Source: Candidatus Roizmanbacteria bacterium | GTDB taxonomy: Bacteria; Patescibacteriota; Microgenomatia; UBA1406; GWC2-37-13 | Assembly (NCBI GenBank): GCA_013335175.1 | Contig: JAAXWC010000016.1 | Location: 1 to 32,216, forward strand | Length of the DNA stretch: 32,216 bases | Direction of reading: 5' to 3' | In this document: piece after piece, positions 1,908 through 11,047 of the stretch | Position numbering within the stretch: position 1 is the first letter of the stretch | How the letters are laid out: the number at the start of each line of letters is the position of its first letter | Notes under the pieces: generated by a model | Databases searched by the model: none | Seen by the model: the letters and a program-made list of their open reading frames with translations, nothing else | What the model was told of the DNA's origin: nothing | Position numbers and translations under genes: made by a program

Positions 1908-2612
1908 TTATTTGTCCTTACTCAAAATGTTCGATTCGTGTAACCGAAGGTAAAAGAGAAGATCACTTTTCAGATGTTCTTTCACCCAGCTTTTCTGTTT
2001 TGAGTCCAGTAACTCACCTAAACCGGCAAGCAGTTCTGACTGTTTCACGTTTTCAACAAGCGTTTGTGCTCGTGTCAGAGAGTCTTTAAGTGAATATTCA
2101 GACTTTTCGAGTAAATATTCTTCATTTATATTCCACTGTTCTTTCAAGAAAAACCAAAGATCATACATATCACGACTGGCAAATTTTTTTCGTGTCAAAA
2201 GCGCTGCTAATTTTCCCGCAATCATATCATCCTGTTTCATAACAAGCATTGATATGCCTAACAAGTTTTTTACTTCAAAGGCAGATTTTATGACACGTTT
2301 TGAGATCTCGACTTTTACACTCCGTTCTCCTTTTGTATAGCTTAGGAGAAAAAAAAGGGTATGCTTTTTATCTTGAGCTTCCAGAATTGTCCCAAATGGC
2401 GGCAGTATTGATTTAAGTCGTTCAAAGACTTCTTCTTTTTTTGAAGAGTCCAGTAAATCAAAATCAAGATCAACTGAGAAACGAGGAAGATTGTAGAACA
2501 AGAGTGCTGCAGTCCCTCCTTTAAAACCCAGACTGTTCCGAAGATAGGGATCCGAATATATAGCACGAAGAATCCCGATTAAGGTACTTCGATGAATGTC
2601 AATGTTTACCAT
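1908..2612 (-). CDS. abiEii: AbiEii/AbiGii-family toxin (type IV TA nucleotidyltransferase)
   Basis: A 234-aa protein of the nucleotidyltransferase-fold AbiEii/DUF1814 family. These are the toxins of type IV toxin-antitoxin and abortive-infection systems, where the toxin transfers nucleotides to a cellular target (tRNA acceptor ends in studied homologues). Motif evidence: GFKGGTAALLF (the GG of motif I), then RFSVDLDFDLL with the paired acidic residues of motif I. A later lysine-rich region, KQDDMIAGKLAALLTRKKFASRDMYDLW, splits as KQDDMIAGKLAAL and RDMYDLW and matches family motifs III-IV. I chose the ATG at 2612 because AAGGAGGA lies 4 nt upstream, one of the few real Shine-Dalgarno sites in the window. 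An upstream in-frame ATG at 2657 would overlap abiEi by 59 bases. With this start the overlap with the antitoxin gene is 14 bases, so the two are translationally coupled. Confidence 0.88.
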   Translation of the reverse strand: MVNIDIHRSTLIGILRAIYSDPYLRNSLGFKGGTAALLFYNLPRFSVDLDFDLLDSSKKEEVFERLKSILPPFGTILEAQDKKHTLFFLLSYTKGERSVKVEISKRVIKSAFEVKNLLGISMLVMKQDDMIAGKLAALLTRKKFASRDMYDLWFFLKEQWNINEEYLLEKSEYSLKDSLTRAQTLVENVKQSELLAGLGELLDSKQKSWVKEHLKSDLLFYLRLHESNILSKDK

Positions 2613-3186
2613 ATTCCTCCTTATATAACTGATGATAGCTTTCCACTCGTTTTTCAAACGCTTTGTTATGATACAATTTTTTCAAATTTTCCACTTTCTC
2701 CCAGTTAAGCACGCCCAGATTGTCAAAATGGTAGTTTTTATAAATATATACCGCATCTAAAAAAGCGCGCTCTAGAGTTGCAATAGCATACCCCTCCTTA
2801 TGCTCTACCCCATCCGCATTCGTAAGTATACTTGAATTTATCCGTCTGTACTGAATAGCTACACCCTGAACGGATAGAGCTCTTGTTATGTACGATATTG
2901 CAAAAATCGTTTCGTAATACTGAAATGTAACGCCACCTCTACTTAATACTGTTTCAAGACTTATGTACGAAGGAGTGTACAGTTTATTGGCGATTTCATA
3001 ATGACTATATTCAATTTTGGCATATATTCCTCGTTGAATTCTTATAAGTTTATTGATCTTGGTAAAATAGTGAAGTCGCCCCCGTAGACTGTCATAGGGG
3101 ATATCCGGAAAAAGCTGCGCAATTTCGTCAAAAGAAAACACTGTTTGCGGTCTCGTGTAAAGACTAAGGATAAAATTATTGTCCAT
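2599..3186 (-). CDS. abiEi: AbiEi-family antitoxin
   Basis: A 195-aa protein with the AbiEi_4 layout. The N-terminal winged-helix DNA-binding domain covers about residues 1-65 (VFSFDEIAQLFPDIPYDSLR, then LIRIQRGIYA, the conserved 'R.G.Y' wing). The C-terminal domain has YISLETVLSRGGV and the ATLERAFLDAVY motif near 150-161. In studied systems AbiEi both neutralises the toxin's effect and represses its own promoter by binding inverted repeats. Upstream is a matching arrangement: TTGACT-17-TAAAAT with three CTGGAAG half-sites. It is the first gene of the two-gene operon. Both genes look intact. Confidence 0.87.
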   Translation of the reverse strand: MDNNFILSLYTRPQTVFSFDEIAQLFPDIPYDSLRGRLHYFTKINKLIRIQRGIYAKIEYSHYEIANKLYTPSYISLETVLSRGGVTFQYYETIFAISYITRALSVQGVAIQYRRINSSILTNADGVEHKEGYAIATLERAFLDAVYIYKNYHFDNLGVLNWEKVENLKKLYHNKAFEKRVESYHQLYKEEYGKH

Positions 3187-4611: not shown

Positions 4612-4627
4612 TGCGACACGTGTCGCA
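4612..4627. promoter_or_regulatory. Palindromic operator TGCGACA-CG-TGTCGCA (site 1)
   Basis: A perfect 16-bp palindrome whose left end is 36 nt upstream of the ATG at 4648. GCGACA inside it falls where a -35 box would be, about 18 nt from the AT-rich AATAAATAA that would serve as a -10. The same motif occurs at 9225-9240, and a degenerate copy at 6306-6321 has the same distance to its start codon. Three sites at three gene starts in 4.6 kb point to one shared DNA-binding protein. Confidence 0.7.
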
Positions 4628-5102: not shown

Positions 5103-5555
5103 ATGCAAATTTATTCAAAATATGGACCACCAGCGCAAAACAATGTACTGCTTGAGCTTCATGTTCCAGAATTTGAACCTATAAAAGAGTTTTATGGAAA
5201 ACTTGGTTTTGAAATTGTTTGGGAACGAAAGCCTGAAGGGTTCAAAGGATATCTTGTTATAAAACGAGGAGACAATATCCTGTGTTTTTGGGCGGGAAAT
5301 GAGAAAGTACTTGAGCATGAATACTTTAGCCAGTGGAACAAGGATACTAAAAGAGGATATGGTGTTGAACTTGTTATCATGGTCGAAGATGTAGAAGCTA
5401 CATATGAAGAAGTAAAGAAGTTTGCAAAGGTTGTTGAGGAAATGAAGGTAAAGCCTTGGGGACTCAAGGATTTCAGAATCGAAAACCCTTTTGGTTACTA
5501 TCTGAGGATTACTCAGTATCACAACATTCTGGATGATAGAAACGCAGTAAAGTAA
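5103..5555 (+). CDS. VOC-superfamily (glyoxalase/bleomycin-resistance-like) protein
   Basis: A 150-aa protein with the paired beta-alpha-beta-beta-beta modules of the vicinal oxygen chelate fold. LLELHVPEFEPIKEFYGKLG (16-35) opens module 1 and GYGVELVIMVEDVEATYEEV (85-104) opens module 2. Possible metal-ligand positions H20 and E89 are present. The last strand, LKDFRIENPFGYYLRI, has Arg where metal-dependent glyoxalases carry the final Glu, so it may be a binding protein of the bleomycin-resistance type. It lies 17 nt after the HTH gene and only 2 nt before the SDR gene, so the three are likely one transcript. The substrate is unknown. Confidence 0.8.
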   Translation: MQIYSKYGPPAQNNVLLELHVPEFEPIKEFYGKLGFEIVWERKPEGFKGYLVIKRGDNILCFWAGNEKVLEHEYFSQWNKDTKRGYGVELVIMVEDVEATYEEVKKFAKVVEEMKVKPWGLKDFRIENPFGYYLRITQYHNILDDRNAVK

Positions 5556-5557
5556 TT

Positions 5558-6286
5558 ATGAAAATTGCAGTTGTTACAGGAGCCAGTACAGGAATTGGAA
5601 GATCGATATCAATCGCTCTCGCTTCTCATGGCTATTTTGTTTATTTACTTGCGAGAAGACAAGAACAACTTGAACAAACAAAAAAACTAATTACCGACCA
5701 AGGTGGACAATCAGAAAGTGTTGTGGCTGATCTTAGCTCGCTCGACTCAGTGAACGAAGCAATTGCAACAATAAAGAATAAAGCAGGATCTATTGAAGTT
5801 CTAGCAAACATCGCAGGAGTATGGCATGGAGTAGATGAGGTATTTGCTGGAAAAGATTTTGAAACATTTGAACAGAAAGTTATTCTTGATACTTACAATG
5901 TAGGAACTATTGTTCCAACTCTTTTAGCCCATGCTTTTATTCCACTTATGAAATCTAATGGAAAGATAATAAATTTGTCTGGAACTTTTGAAAATGGTGC
6001 AAAAGGTTGGCTCCCATACTATGTGTCAAAAAGAGCTATAGAAGATCTTACAGTTGCCTTATCTCAAGAATTAGAAGACAGGGATATTCAAGTAAACTGT
6101 ATTTCGCCTTCAGACACTGCTACTGAAGCGTATGCGAAGTTTTTTCCTCAATACATGGATGAAGCTATCAATCCTGAAAAAATTGCAAACAAGGTTCTCG
6201 AGCTGGTAGATCCCGAGGACAAATTGACAGGAAAAGTGATTGTCATGAAGAAGGACAAAGAACCAGTCGAAGGTTTCCATTCATAA
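5558..6286 (+). CDS. Short-chain dehydrogenase/reductase (SDR)
   Basis: A 242-aa classical SDR acting as an NAD(P)-dependent oxidoreductase in the cytoplasm. The Rossmann motif TGASTGIG is at 7-14, with ARR at 32-34 after beta-2 suggesting NADPH preference. NIAG (84-87) stands for the usual NNAG. The catalytic residues are N114, S141, Y154 and K158 (YYVSK). VNCISPSDTATE follows as the conserved post-catalytic loop, with P-S-D in place of the usual P-G. The C-terminus is complete. It starts 2 nt after the VOC stop, so the two are co-translated. A VOC/SDR pair suggests modification of a small carbonyl compound, but nothing in the sequence names it. Confidence 0.9.
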   Translation: MKIAVVTGASTGIGRSISIALASHGYFVYLLARRQEQLEQTKKLITDQGGQSESVVADLSSLDSVNEAIATIKNKAGSIEVLANIAGVWHGVDEVFAGKDFETFEQKVILDTYNVGTIVPTLLAHAFIPLMKSNGKIINLSGTFENGAKGWLPYYVSKRAIEDLTVALSQELEDRDIQVNCISPSDTATEAYAKFFPQYMDEAINPEKIANKVLELVDPEDKLTGKVIVMKKDKEPVEGFHS

Positions 6287-6294
6287 CAAAATCC

Positions 6295-6336
6295 TCGCAG
6301 TAAGCTGCGACAACTGGCGCAGTAAACGAGTATAAT
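6295..6336 (+). promoter_or_regulatory. Promoter and operator (site 2) of the HEPN operon
   Basis: TGCGACAACTGGCGCA (6306-6321) matches sites 1 and 3 at about 13 of 16 positions, and CTGCG/CGCAG (6305-6322) are its outer arms. GCGACA (6307-6312) can serve as the -35 box, followed by an 18-bp spacer and a perfect TATAAT at 6331-6336, 6 nt before the ATG. A bound repressor would cover the -35. An extra half-site, TCGCAG (6295-6300), pairs perfectly with CTGCGA (6305-6310). The transcript start is expected at or beside the ATG, so the mRNA is leaderless. Confidence 0.65.
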
Positions 6337-6342
6337 CCGAGT

Positions 6343-8118
6343 ATGGAAAAAGCCGAGTTTGAACAGCTAATATCTCAGTTAGAAACAGATGCGTCTTCGG
6401 TAAAATATGACTTTCAGATCGCTGAATTCTTCGAAAAACTACTCGATGAAAACAAAGTAAAACTCACGCCAGAGCAGGATCAAAAATTGAGATGGGAGTT
6501 TTTGCTCTTTCGTCTAACCACAAAAAATAAGTTCGCAAGTGATGGTACATCAACTGACAGATTTGTTCCGATGGCAATATTTGAAGGTGGTGGGATTTTT
6601 CCAGATCCAAATTCGCTTACTCCCGCTTTGGAATATTTTGAGGAAAGAGCGAAGATGTGCACCAACTCAATACTAAAGGCGAGATATCTGGATATCCTAT
6701 GGGAAAAGTCACAATCAAAATCAAAGCACTTGTTTGCTATCGAGGCAGTATCAGAATACCTGTCAAATGTTGACCAATACGAAAACGAGGAAGCAATCAT
6801 GGAACGGCTTGACGGCTTACAGCGAGCAACTGAACTAGCGTTGATTATCGAGAAGAATACAGATAAAAAAATTCTTACAAATAAGATTGTATCCAAGCTC
6901 AATGAGCAAATCGAATCTACATCGAAGACTGGAAAGTGTCGTTGGTTGATAGAAATGTTTGAGCTTGTTGTATCATTGATCAGTTTCTATTCAAATGAAG
7001 AACTTTTGAGGTTTGCCTCTGTGTGCGATTTGGCAGTTGATAGCTATCATAAAGAGAGCAATTTTCACATACAACGACACTTCCTCGCCCTCAAGTCTCA
7101 GCTATTGAAGTCCGTACTCCCCACTTCAAAACAAGAGATTGACGAAGCAATAGGTCAAACATATCTCGATGAAGCGGATGCTAAGTCGGATAGCGGGATT
7201 GTGAGAGCTCATTTTTTACAGGAGGCGGTTGATCATTTCAACAAGTTGGGGAACAAGAAGAAAGTTGACGAGCTAATTTCTCAGATAAAAGACGCAACAA
7301 AACAAGCCATCGATAACAAAGAGTTCAAACAGTTTTCATCAACAATTGAGCTAAAACCTGAAGACGAAAAAAGTATCAAGGAAAGCCTTGGTAAAGGTGA
7401 GGAGGTTCCAGAACGCATGGGAACAGTGTCAACATTTTTTCCTAACTGGAATCATGCAGTAAAAATGACTGAGGATCATAGTAAAAAGTTTGTTTTTATG
7501 CACTTGGCGAAAAAGGTTACGTTTGGAAGTAAATATCCAATAAGCGACCCTCGCACACCTGAGAAAGAGACTGAGGATCAAGTGATGGGTAATTTCCAGA
7601 TAGAAGTTCAAATAGCTAATCAGTGGCTGACAATATTCCTTGGTCAACTCATAGAAGCAGACAAGGTTTCAGCAGAAGATTTTAGAAAGTTTTTTAGCAA
7701 GTTGGAATTGATTGATCCTGATACTTACTCAACAGTTATGGAGGGAGTGAATTTGTATTTTGAGGGTAAACATTTCCAAGCAGTATGTGTTTTAGCTCCT
7801 CAATTGGAAGATCTTTTGAGGCATTTACTTTCCATTTTCGGGGGTCAAACAACTACTCTACATAAAGACGCTCACGCTTTTACAGAGAAAAACTTGAATA
7901 GAATCCTTGCTGAACTACGTCCACATATTTCTGACGAACTATTTCACTACATCTCTTGGGTTATGGATGATTATCGAGGATACAATTTGAGATATATGGT
8001 CGGTCATGGTTTTTTCAAAACCAAGCATGGTAGCACTTTATACTCAACTGCGCTCCTCCATATTTTTTGTGTGTTGATTGCTAACACTAACATTGTTATG
8101 AAAGTTCAAGAAAAGTGA
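6343..8118 (+). CDS. DUF4209-like protein with C-terminal HEPN-type domain
   Basis: A 591-aa, mostly alpha-helical, soluble protein. The N-terminal two thirds resemble the helical region usual in DUF4209 proteins (PDPNSLTPALEYFEERAKMC and then ILKARYLDILWE near 110-120). The C-terminal region holds the DUF4209 signature: a helix with QAVCVLAPQLEDLLRHLLS, then TTTLHKD, then DDYRGYNLRYMVGHG. The latter contains R550-x4-H555, the R-x4-6-H pair of HEPN RNases, though Tyr follows the Arg instead of the usual Asn. HEPN domains act as RNases or as structural or antitoxin partners in many defence and TA systems. It starts at a leaderless promoter with operator site 2. The next gene, also HEPN, begins 10 nt after its stop. 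The biological role is not known. Confidence 0.65.
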   Translation: MEKAEFEQLISQLETDASSVKYDFQIAEFFEKLLDENKVKLTPEQDQKLRWEFLLFRLTTKNKFASDGTSTDRFVPMAIFEGGGIFPDPNSLTPALEYFEERAKMCTNSILKARYLDILWEKSQSKSKHLFAIEAVSEYLSNVDQYENEEAIMERLDGLQRATELALIIEKNTDKKILTNKIVSKLNEQIESTSKTGKCRWLIEMFELVVSLISFYSNEELLRFASVCDLAVDSYHKESNFHIQRHFLALKSQLLKSVLPTSKQEIDEAIGQTYLDEADAKSDSGIVRAHFLQEAVDHFNKLGNKKKVDELISQIKDATKQAIDNKEFKQFSSTIELKPEDEKSIKESLGKGEEVPERMGTVSTFFPNWNHAVKMTEDHSKKFVFMHLAKKVTFGSKYPISDPRTPEKETEDQVMGNFQIEVQIANQWLTIFLGQLIEADKVSAEDFRKFFSKLELIDPDTYSTVMEGVNLYFEGKHFQAVCVLAPQLEDLLRHLLSIFGGQTTTLHKDAHAFTEKNLNRILAELRPHISDELFHYISWVMDDYRGYNLRYMVGHGFFKTKHGSTLYSTALLHIFCVLIANTNIVMKVQEK

Positions 8119-8128
8119 GAGAAGAATT

Positions 8129-9208
8129 ATGCAGATAATATATTTCCCATATCTCAACCTCAAGAACCAAGATGAGCTCGATTTTGGCGACTTCAAAATA
8201 TGGAATTTTGATCGGAAAGCTAACGAATACATTCCTGATGAAACTCTGCGTTCATATATTGGAAAGCTGATGGCTTCAAATGTCACAAGAAAACAACCAA
8301 TAAAAGATATTGGAGTTCTCTCTATTGGTGCAGTTGATTTTCGAGTGTTCAATGAAGAGGAATTTCAACTTGCAAAAGAAGCAAGACTTTTGATGTTTGT
8401 TTCCTACATATCAAAGGTAAACATCTCAGCGACTGGAGTAAATGGGGGCCACTACATGGCGACTTCAGAAAACTTCACATATGTTACACAGAATTTTCAA
8501 CCCGAAAGTGATCACATAGCAGAACAGTCTGGATTTATTGTTAGAAAGCTCATGGGTGGGTATAGAGTTGATGAGGTAACGTTCAACTCTCCATCTTTTT
8601 TGCTCACACCAATGCGGTTTGCACTAGATGGTGAGTTGATTGGACATTTGCTTTTGTTGCGCAAGAAACAAAAAAGACTCTACAGGCGGATACTTAGAGC
8701 AATAGATTTGCTTTTCGAGAGTTATTTCAACGATCCCTATCTTAGTCTCAATGCACGAGTATTGTTGCAAGTTGGTGCTTTTGAGGTCCTTCTAGATCTG
8801 CCTGAAGAAGGACAACGTAGAGTATTCAAGGACTTGATACACCAACATACGGACAACACTAGAGAAACACAGGTAAAATTTTACTCCGAGAGAAGAGGTT
8901 CAAAAGTGAAAGAGAAAGCGTCAAGAAAGGTAAAATGGGCTGATAAATTTTACACTCTCCGCAATCACATAATTCACGGCAATGCAGTACCTATTGACGA
9001 TTTTTACTTCGAAAGAAAACAAAGACATATTGATGTTTCGCTTCTATTCTTCATTTTGATTATCAAAAGATTGATCAATGAAAAATTACCCAGACCTTAT
9101 TACTTTGATACTATCGACTGGAAAAAGACAGATTATGCAGTTGATAATCAATATGGTTTTGAGTTTGTGGACCACAGCATTATGAGAAGATTGTCTCGTA
9201 TTCGTTAG
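8129..9208 (+). CDS. Apea-like HEPN protein with canonical RNxxxH
   Basis: A 359-aa soluble protein. The C-terminal domain (about 175-320) matches the Apea-like HEPN pattern: a long helix LYRRILRAIDLLFESYFNDP, then LNARVLLQVGAFEVLLDL, a charged insert, then KFYTLRNHIIHGN with R278-N279-x3-H283, the canonical HEPN RNase motif. The N-terminal about 170 residues are a beta-rich region (FGDFKIWNF and so on) that I cannot assign. It follows the DUF4209-like gene by 10 nt, with a weak GAGAGAAG upstream, so the two form an operon. Two different HEPN proteins side by side suggest either an RNase with a partner or a two-component defence module. An RNase activity is inferred from the motif only. Confidence 0.65.
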   Translation: MQIIYFPYLNLKNQDELDFGDFKIWNFDRKANEYIPDETLRSYIGKLMASNVTRKQPIKDIGVLSIGAVDFRVFNEEEFQLAKEARLLMFVSYISKVNISATGVNGGHYMATSENFTYVTQNFQPESDHIAEQSGFIVRKLMGGYRVDEVTFNSPSFLLTPMRFALDGELIGHLLLLRKKQKRLYRRILRAIDLLFESYFNDPYLSLNARVLLQVGAFEVLLDLPEEGQRRVFKDLIHQHTDNTRETQVKFYSERRGSKVKEKASRKVKWADKFYTLRNHIIHGNAVPIDDFYFERKQRHIDVSLLFFILIIKRLINEKLPRPYYFDTIDWKKTDYAVDNQYGFEFVDHSIMRRLSRIR

Positions 9209-9224: not shown

Positions 9225-9240
9225 TGCGACACATGTCGCA
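9225..9240. promoter_or_regulatory. Palindromic operator TGCGACA-CA-TGTCGCA (site 3)
   Basis: The 7-bp arms are perfect and identical to site 1; only one central base differs. It lies 17 nt after the second HEPN gene and 86 nt before the 60-aa gene that leads the recombinase unit. Downstream are a TTGACG (9272-9277) and AT-rich sequence, but no -10 as clear as at site 2. It probably controls the recombinase transcript and may also mark the 3' end of the HEPN operon. Confidence 0.65.
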
Positions 9241-9310: not shown

Positions 9311-9493
9311 ATGGCAAATCTAACTCTTACCAAAGCACGAAAAATTCTGGGAAAACTGGCAGAAGACGTATCTGATGCTGACCTTGAACAAGAGATGAAA
9401 ACAGCTCAACTTCTCAAGATGCTTTACTTTAGTCATTTGAAGAAAACACCATCCAATAGTTCGTATAATAAAGAGACCAATGGAAAAACTTAG
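9311..9493 (+). CDS. 60-aa protein preceding the recombinase
   Basis: A small basic and acidic alpha-helical protein: MANLTLTKARKILGKLAEDV followed by SDADLEQEMKTAQLLKML and a polar tail. It overlaps the recombinase start by 14 bases, so the two are translationally coupled. I do not recognise a named family. Small helical proteins directly upstream of large serine recombinases can be excision (directionality) factors or regulators, but nothing in this sequence proves either. Its leader carries operator site 3. Confidence 0.6.
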   Translation: MANLTLTKARKILGKLAEDVSDADLEQEMKTAQLLKMLYFSHLKKTPSNSSYNKETNGKT

Positions 9494-11012
9494 AGCTGTT
9501 ATCTATATCCGTGTTTCTGATGAAAGTCAGATCAAGAACAATAGTCTTGAGACGCAACTCAAGGCATGTCATAACTATGCATCAGTCAATGATCTCGAGG
9601 TGGTGAAAGTCTTTAGAGAAGAAGGTGTTTCAGCAAAACACATTCACACTCGACCAGAAATGAGATCTCTCCTTCAATTCTGCACTCTCAAGAAGAACAG
9701 TATTTCACAGGTAATTGTTTACAAAATGGATCGTTGGACACGCAACGTTGAGGAAGGACTGGCCGCAATGTCACTTCTTTCAAGGTCAGGGGTCTCGGTA
9801 AGTCCAGCCACTGAGGTGACAGAACAAAACCCTATGGGTAAAGCAATGCGGACAATTCTCATGGCTTTGGGTGAACTAGATAATGGATTGAAATCAGAGC
9901 GTGTCAAAGACAACATGCAAACGATGTTCCGAAATGGTTTGTGGCCTTGGAAACCTCAAATTGGTTATATACGACCCAAAGGCGATAGAGACCAGATAAA
10001 AGGTAAGCCAGCGGTAAGGGATAATAGATACAGCGAAATGATCAACTTACTCTTTTCTAAGGCTTCAGAAGGGCAGTATTCAAAACAATGGCTGGCAAAA
10101 TATCTAAATTCACTTGGTTTTGGTAAATCCTATGGCAAACCTGCTGATGGTAAACTGATAACACACATCATGAAAAACCCATTTTATTATGGAATGATGT
10201 ATGCCCCTCGATGGAGAGAATATCAAAGAGGGATTCATGAGCCAATCGTTGATCAGATCACTTGGGAAAAAGCGAACATGAATACTTTCAAGAATAAACG
10301 AACATATAACACTCAAGACAGCGTTCTATACCCTCTCAAAGGTCTTCTGTCCTGTAGCAATTGTATGCACGCCCTCACATCAAGTAACCCTTTTGGCAGG
10401 GCAAAAAATTATCTTTACTACGAGTGTCACAATAAAGCCTGCATCAAAAAAGAACGTATCGGAGCTGATGCGGCACAAGAGCAATTCCTCTCAATACTCT
10501 CAACACTCAAACCTTCAAAAAGAGTTCTCAAAATGTTCGTGACCTTGGTCTTTGATGAATGGGATGAAACTATTGAGATAACAAGAAAAGAAGCATCACT
10601 AAGGGATGAAAAAATAAAACAACTTGAAGCAGAAATCATAACTACAAACCAAGGAAATGCCAAAGGTATGTTGACTGATGGTGAAGCCCTATCTCATATA
10701 GAAGATCTTAGAAGAGAAATAACAGTACTTAGTGTTGAAAGATCTGAAATGAAGATCGATGAGTACAACACTGAAGCAGTGAAGAATTTTACGGAGACGT
10801 TTTTAGCCAACCTAGATAGGTTCTGGCTACAACTCGACTTAGCAGAAAAACAAATGCTCCAAACGCATATTTTCCCTGCAGGAATGCTTTGTGAGAATAA
10901 AGGAATTCGAATCAACGGTTTAGCACGATCTTTCGAGCTAATCGAAGCAATGAAAGATAAGAATTTCCAAAATGTGATCCCACGGGGATTCGAACCCCGG
11001 TTAGAAGGCTGA
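9480..11012 (+). CDS. Large serine recombinase
   Basis: A 510-aa site-specific recombinase. The N-terminal resolvase domain has AVIYIRVSDESQ with catalytic Ser13 and R11, and YKMDRWTRN with R85 and R88. The 'recombinase' domain follows (PWKPQIGYIRPKG, then IMKNPFYYGMMY near 225-235). A zinc ribbon with CSNC and a second CHNKAC pair lies near 292-322. A coiled-coil segment covers about 360-420, as usual in large serine integrases. The last 12 residues (VIPRGFEPRLEG) are read from the antisense of tRNA-Glu: the gene overlaps the tRNA by 38 bases, a hallmark of an integrase whose 3' end was joined to its target. The gene is complete, and likely drives integration and excision of the block to its left. 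Confidence 0.93.
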   Translation: MEKLRAVIYIRVSDESQIKNNSLETQLKACHNYASVNDLEVVKVFREEGVSAKHIHTRPEMRSLLQFCTLKKNSISQVIVYKMDRWTRNVEEGLAAMSLLSRSGVSVSPATEVTEQNPMGKAMRTILMALGELDNGLKSERVKDNMQTMFRNGLWPWKPQIGYIRPKGDRDQIKGKPAVRDNRYSEMINLLFSKASEGQYSKQWLAKYLNSLGFGKSYGKPADGKLITHIMKNPFYYGMMYAPRWREYQRGIHEPIVDQITWEKANMNTFKNKRTYNTQDSVLYPLKGLLSCSNCMHALTSSNPFGRAKNYLYYECHNKACIKKERIGADAAQEQFLSILSTLKPSKRVLKMFVTLVFDEWDETIEITRKEASLRDEKIKQLEAEIITTNQGNAKGMLTDGEALSHIEDLRREITVLSVERSEMKIDEYNTEAVKNFTETFLANLDRFWLQLDLAEKQMLQTHIFPAGMLCENKGIRINGLARSFELIEAMKDKNFQNVIPRGFEPRLEG

Positions 11013-11047
11013 AAACCTACTGTCCTAGGCCTCTAGACGATGGGACC
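10975..11047 (-). tRNA. tRNA-Glu (anticodon UUC)
   Basis: A 73-nt cloverleaf including the discriminator. The acceptor stem GGTCCCA pairs with TGGGATC, with A73 as discriminator. The D-arm CGTCTAGAGGCCTAGGACA is typical of tRNA-Glu. The anticodon loop TTTTCAG gives UUC. The T-arm CGGGG-TTCGAAT-CCCCG is perfect. The anticodon stem GTAGG/CCTTC has one T-T mismatch. CCA is not encoded. The 3' half overlaps the recombinase stop region, so the gene is the likely attachment site and remains a complete tRNA. Confidence 0.93.

Follow-up and report, generated by a model that had tools for sequence, protein, structure and literature searches.

A 32,216-nucleotide contig of a Candidatus Roizmanbacteria genome (contig C39 of a 1.45-Mb genome that is complete by marker score; its whole length is the window analyzed here) carries, on a mobile island, two adjacent genes whose products, P0001 and P0002, are an HEPN-type protein and a second, probably HEPN-like protein. 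We favor, with a probability of about 0.6, the explanation that these two HEPN-family genes are antiviral cargo of the island, that their products would cut RNA and bring about abortive infection, and that a regulator of the island would hold them down. Both genes (P0001 at 6343–8118, P0002 at 8129–9208) lie on the plus strand with 10 nucleotides from stop to start, and each encodes an R-x4-H pair, R550/H555 in P0001 and R278/H283 in P0002. This arrangement had been pointed out in a preliminary description of the DNA, and it holds both in its coordinates and in the conservation of the motif: the pair is invariant in 19 of 19 DUF4209 homologues (P0001 among them), drawn from several phyla as well as from phages and an archaeal plasmid, and in all ten P0002 homologues. 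Because of this invariance, its occurrence in both proteins is more than chance, although the motif alone would be weak evidence, since R[NHD]xxxH is found in the C-terminal half of 16 of the 171 open reading frames (ORFs) of the loci that we read. Little has been described of the antiviral systems of Patescibacteria, which are ultra-small bacteria, and the locus ties a candidate defense family, PDC-S39, to P2-phage defense hotspots and to a mobile island in this group.

P0001 is assigned to a candidate class of phage-defense proteins

P0001 (591 residues) is predicted to consist of DUF7380, a TPR-like solenoid and a C-terminal DUF4209 HEPN domain. Pfam matched DUF7380 at 42.1 bits (cut-off 27) and DUF4209 at 26.8 bits, over its curated cut-off of 22.3, which argues that P0001 is an HEPN-type protein. 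PADLOC aligned residues 68–564 with positions 70–581 of the 615-position profile of PDC-S39 (E = 4.1e-41), a phage-defense candidate class that comes from computation. P0001 has the domain order and the R-x4-H of this class but only ~20% identity to other members, R-Y in place of R-N or R-H, and a second HEPN-type gene directly behind its own; it is best described as a divergent member. DUF4209 overlaps the C6orf70 family, which Anantharaman et al. (2013) placed in the HEPN superfamily and which is known for TPR fusions and restriction-modification (R-M) related operons (PMC3710099); P0001 has in common with C6orf70/ERMARD–DUF4209 proteins the DUF4209 HEPN, the TPR-like N-terminal part and the R-M neighborhoods of the family, but it is bacterial and sits on a recombinase island.

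The motif reads R550-Y-M-V-G-H555 and lies inside the DUF4209 match. Among the 19 homologues the residue after the arginine is N in 14 and H in 4, and P0001 alone has Y. The AlphaFold model of P0001 (predicted local distance difference test score, pLDDT, 65.5) is nearly all helical, and its top matches in the PDB come from designed helical repeats and from TPR domains, that of LGN among them. Because a helical-repeat or TPR-like solenoid is thus joined to a C-terminal HEPN, P0001 probably combines a sensor and an RNase in a single chain. The preliminary description had called R-Y less canonical and had cast the protein as a sensor, scaffold or regulator; the tyrosine is indeed the only one in the set, but P0001 looks like a self-contained sensor and RNase rather than a mere regulator.

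We traced relatives of P0001 with the family hidden Markov model and through plasmid and phage records, and all those scanned matched PDC-S39; a short-pattern search of the genome contigs matched nothing. In the P2-like phage vB_EcoM-569R9 the PDC-S39 gene is flanked by gpA and the portal gene gpQ, as it also is in a P2-type prophage region of a Salmonella plasmid, and IMG/VR contains some ten further related loci, of which those read are of the P2 type. It was from this gpA–gpQ hotspot that Rousset et al. cloned functional anti-phage systems (PMC9122126). One further copy lies between tail genes of a different prophage, and others adjoin R-M genes, recombinases or transposases. Together with the PADLOC assignment and an AbiE pair near the two genes in the window, these contexts support the likely defense function that had been proposed for the locus. 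Within the phylum the family is rare: the PDC-S39 profile matched 3 of 145 sampled genomes, and one of the three matches, a weak one in genome G069 (E = 1e-4), turned out to be a different protein. Several other low-scoring matches were left out on the same ground.

At one PDC-S39 locus (L016:7034-8422) a 462-residue protein that starts MHKLIIYLDQNFISD and has no family match overlaps the start of the PDC-S39 gene by 8 nucleotides. We considered that it might be a PIN-type RNase, which was a reading of its LDQN motif only, and dropped the idea.

P0002 probably represents a new HEPN family

P0002 (359 residues) would begin with an alpha/beta domain and end in HEPN-like helices. Its model (pLDDT 81, predicted TM score 0.85) places the alpha/beta part at about residues 1–130 and helices at 168–319, R278 lying close to where helix 266–282 ends. 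All 10 homologues keep R278, H283 and G284, and the motif, R278-N-H-I-I-H283, is of the R-N-x3-H type. We call P0002 HEPN-like and regard it as probably the member of a new, unnamed HEPN family; PADLOC gave no match, ApeA included, for P0002 or its relatives. With ApeA and HEPN_Apea (PF18739) P0002 shares R-N-x3-H in a C-terminal helical domain, and distant P0002 relatives stand in R-M neighborhoods; its N-terminal part is alpha/beta and of about 165 residues, unlike the ~300-residue ApeA-NTD1. By description it also resembles Tha, a prophage HEPN RNase of S. aureus with R-N-x3-H that degrades RNA once a phage tail protein is sensed and so causes abortive infection (PMC11087260): both have about 300–360 residues and a C-terminal HEPN. 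Tha is carried by temperate phages and a relative of P0002 adjoins a prophage integrase, but at the present locus there is a second HEPN partner.

That relative, 51% identical to P0002, lies on a WWE3 prophage contig (L011/L018, also L025; the same DNA as an IMG/VR contig), where its gene overlaps a convergent serine integrase gene at the latter's 3′ end and is accompanied by methylase-like, terminase-small-subunit-like and terminase-like genes, the methylase and terminase names being our own reading of the sequence. With P0002 the locus brings in an HEPN-like family, as yet unnamed, that is also present on a prophage of Patescibacteria. A homologue of 46% identity, in an Actinomycetota metagenome-assembled genome (MAG; L019), lies near an HTH-Panacea antitoxin gene, and one of 40%, in a MAG labelled Deltaproteobacteria (L021), near an R-M methylase and an AAA_13 ATPase; a further one, of 42–44%, is found in genome G213 (L020). 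More distant homologues (~27%) from two Microgenomates loci (L022 and L023) belong to R-M operons of type III and type I. In both of these operons (L022:5280-7074 and L023:5279-7119) the homologue is preceded, at +1 and −4 nucleotides, by a protein of 231–234 residues with a conserved R-N-x3-H; these two proteins are 52% identical to each other and have no Pfam match.

A palindrome confined to the island covers the promoter of the two genes

The best of the promoter-like matches in the region, a plus-strand sigma-70-type promoter GCGACA-18-TATAAT with 10 of 12 consensus positions (6307–6336), stands directly before P0001, with its −35 at 6307–6312 and its −10, TATAAT, at 6331–6336; such matches are not enriched in the region (6 observed versus 7.3 by chance). 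Because the ATG at 6343 begins only 6 nucleotides after the −10, the mRNA of the HEPN operon would be leaderless. A palindrome, TGCGACAnnTGTCGCA (TGCGACA-NN-TGTCGCA), covers the −35. It has three copies at no more than one mismatch in the 1.45-Mb genome, all of them on the island: TGCGACACGTGTCGCA at 4612–4627, which ends 20 nucleotides before the ATG of P0004; TGCGACAACTGGCGCA at 6306–6321, which has one mismatch, lies over the −35 and ends 21 nucleotides before the ATG of P0001; and TGCGACACATGTCGCA at 9225–9240, upstream of the ORF at 9311 and the recombinase gene. The leaderless promoter with its palindrome had already been described and was recovered at these positions; a palindrome that lies over the P0001 promoter and is confined, genome-wide, to the island is a new observation. 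The three copies are good evidence for an island regulon, in which they would be the predicted operators, and they provide a concrete regulatory motif.

Terminase small subunits are DNA-binding helix-turn-helix (HTH) proteins, and P0004 (4648–5085, plus strand, 145 residues) is a terminase-small-subunit-like HTH protein (phrog_4044, terminase small subunit, E = 3.7e-7). It is our best candidate for an autoregulated repressor, favored because one operator copy precedes the P0004 gene itself. Two other uses of the palindromes were considered. As core sites of a serine recombinase that mark cassettes they were rejected, because their central dinucleotides differ (CG, AC and CA) and two of them lie 20–21 nucleotides 5′ of start codons; the copy at 9225 is not favored as a terminator, as no T-run follows directly behind the stem.

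Pairing of the two families is facultative

The preliminary description had proposed a dedicated two-gene module and had named beforehand, as its check, whether the pair co-occurs in other genomes. It does so in one other lineage: in G213/L020 a 357-residue PDC-S39-like protein (E = 6e-24) is encoded directly upstream of the P0002 homologue, in the same order and on the same strand as in the window. The genes are otherwise rarely adjacent, which weakens the claim of a strict two-gene system. PDC-S39 is usually solitary, and a co-directional HEPN-like neighbor within 150 nucleotides was found at 3 of 21 PDC-S39 loci (the window, L020 and L052), leaving 18 without one; the genomes with solitary P0002 copies have no PDC-S39 elsewhere. 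At the third locus, L052:295-2947, the PDC-S39 gene is followed after 13 nucleotides by a gene for a 238-residue DUF4145-like protein with RNSYLH, and this HEPN–HEPN tandem, taken with those at L022 and L023, suggests that tandem HEPN-like genes with varying partners are a recurring theme. Because this combination turns up in a single further lineage and both families usually live apart, we read the pairing of the P0001 and P0002 types as facultative, real but uncommon. Each protein is probably able to act alone, since both types mostly occur without the other, and a strict two-gene system is not established; at this locus the two probably form a co-regulated antiviral unit. We also considered whether the paired PDC-S39 genes form one clade, which the trees do not show (support of 83/84 with a long-branch warning, and of 71/54 in a smaller set).

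A model of the island's antiviral cargo and its alternatives

In the model that we favor, a regulator, most likely P0004, would sit on the palindrome over the −35 in the resting cell and keep the leaderless operon low. Upon infection, the solenoid of P0001, the N-terminal part of P0002 or both would sense a phage component, and HEPN dimers would then cut RNA, so that growth of the cell stops in abortive infection. The P0001 solenoid is the likely sensor, and P0002 would be either a second, differently triggered RNase or an executioner for P0001. Sensing and RNA cleavage by these proteins are proposed by analogy with Tha.

Several observations weigh against this explanation. For P0001, the model is of low confidence, the R-Y variant makes reduced or altered activity possible, and we found no experimental test of the anti-phage activity of PDC-S39 in the papers searched. 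For P0002, the HEPN_Apea match in Pfam (residues 224–286) stays under the cut-off at 15.4 versus 24.4 bits, as do all matches of its homologues to HEPN_RiboL-PSP and HEPN_MAE_28990 in the same region; Foldseek with the P0002 model reached at best E = 0.7 in the PDB and 1.2 among the BFVD viral models, with very high root-mean-square deviation in all alignments, so that this comparison was taken as uninformative and the proposed fold of P0002 rests on its sequence. For the pair, the exact combination of PDC-S39 and P0002 is seen in two lineages only (the window and L012/L020), among five close copies of P0002 three (L018, L019 and L021) have no DUF4209 partner, and the nearest relative of P0002 in the tree is the solitary prophage copy (support 94/98). 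For the regulation, naming P0004 as the protein that binds the operators is guesswork based on its position and fold class, and the glyoxalase and short-chain dehydrogenase (SDR) genes of the island do not obviously fit into the model.

That the two are independent defense genes stacked on one island, with the shared promoter incidental to the kind of cargo packing seen in prophage hotspots, has in our estimate slightly less than an even chance. The solitary state of PDC-S39 at most loci, the three partnerless P0002 relatives and the position of P0002 beside a solitary prophage copy are what it would lead one to expect, but it leaves to coincidence the 10-nucleotide spacing behind a single operator and the adjacency of both families, in the same order, in the distant L012/L020, though PDC-S39 was matched in so few genomes of the phylum. 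Adjacency in two lineages could point to a true two-component HEPN–HEPN system, with P0001 as sensor or scaffold and P0002 as effector, or with both in a mixed HEPN dimer; the recurrence of HEPN-like tandems with a DUF4145-like protein (L052) and with an R-N-x3-H protein (L022 and L023) and the R-Y variant of P0001 are in line with it. It has to contend with the partnerless close copies of P0002 and with a profile–profile comparison between P0002 and DUF4209 that is weak (E = 0.034, probability 1.5%), though the motifs align (YTLRNHIIHG on YNLRYMVGHG), and we consider it possible but rather doubtful. Were two unlike HEPN RNases to cooperate, one would have to ask why a single sensor-RNase does not suffice.

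HEPN toxins are known from MNT/HEPN modules (PMC3710099), and a two-gene operon with a palindromic operator on a mobile element would suit a toxin–antitoxin addiction module of the island, with one HEPN protein as toxin and the other as antitoxin. Each gene is found without the other in many genomes, however, the R/H pair is kept in both proteins although an antitoxin would not need it, and P0001, with 591 residues in a solenoid and an HEPN, is unlike known antitoxins; the locus also differs from HEPN-MNT and other HEPN toxin–antitoxin modules, which likewise place an HEPN protein in a two-gene operon, in lacking a nucleotidyltransferase partner and in having two HEPN-type proteins. We rejected the strict form of this reading, because the genes live apart, and rate an addiction module as very improbable; the dedicated toxin–antitoxin-like pair that the preliminary description had suggested is not supported, given the 18 PDC-S39 loci and three P0002 copies without a partner. 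Less far-fetched, though still unlikely, is the reading of the island as a phage satellite or as a remnant prophage, in which P0004 redirects packaging and the palindromes are packaging or replication sites. P0004 does match terminase small subunits, and its homologue in WWE3 L011 (~1822–2016) directly precedes a gene for a terminase-like large subunit, in the prophage with the 51% P0002 homologue; yet the window has no capsid, replication or large terminase gene, the palindrome copies differ in their central dinucleotide, and the placement of two palindromes 20–21 nucleotides ahead of start codons, with one of them exactly over a −35, fits operators. More ambitious than our favored model, and to our minds quite unlikely, is a novel type of antiviral unit in which two unlike HEPN ribonucleases stand in tandem, one a sensor-RNase with a TPR solenoid and the other a second RNase, and which has arisen repeatedly out of different HEPN families. 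At this locus a terminase-small-subunit-like regulator would then use one and the same palindrome to repress its own gene, the HEPN operon and the region of the recombinase, such that loss of repression would couple defense with excision.

The island and its integration site

On the plus strand of the window the genes follow in the order P0004, glyoxalase (5103–5555), SDR (5558–6286), P0001, P0002, P0007 and P0003. P0007 (9311–9493) is a 60-residue ORF without a family that overlaps the start of the recombinase gene. P0003 (9480–11012) is a large serine recombinase with resolvase, recombinase and zinc-ribbon domains; the 3′ end of its gene lies inside the tRNA-Glu(TTC) gene (10974–11047, minus strand), in agreement with the plus-strand recombinase island at a tRNA of the preliminary description. 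In genomes of the same family without the insert, a mechanosensitive-channel gene leads to tRNA-Glu, with uvrB and uvrA nearby, whereas in the window the recombinase follows instead; the relative G785 has a 43%-identical recombinase at the same tRNA-Glu. Because the recombinase gene runs into the tRNA and relatives lack the insert, we identify the element as a serine-recombinase mobile island inserted at tRNA-Glu. Its left boundary was not located in the assembly, and the left end may be absent from it: neither the left part of the window nor the region upstream of uvrB on contig C22, where the uvrB of this genome lies behind ~15 kb, holds a duplicate of the tRNA end (att). For large serine recombinases a short core is enough.

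The glyoxalase and SDR genes, which sit between P0004 and the HEPN operon, are tightly spaced with P0004. Left of the island genes listed above, AbiEi (2599–3186) and AbiEii (1908–2657) are encoded by overlapping minus-strand genes (PADLOC, E = 4e-56 and 3e-67); AbiEi and AbiEii form a type IV toxin–antitoxin and abortive-infection pair. A second AbiE-like pair, named from our reading of the sequence, precedes uvrB on contig C22 (L131:5197-6473).

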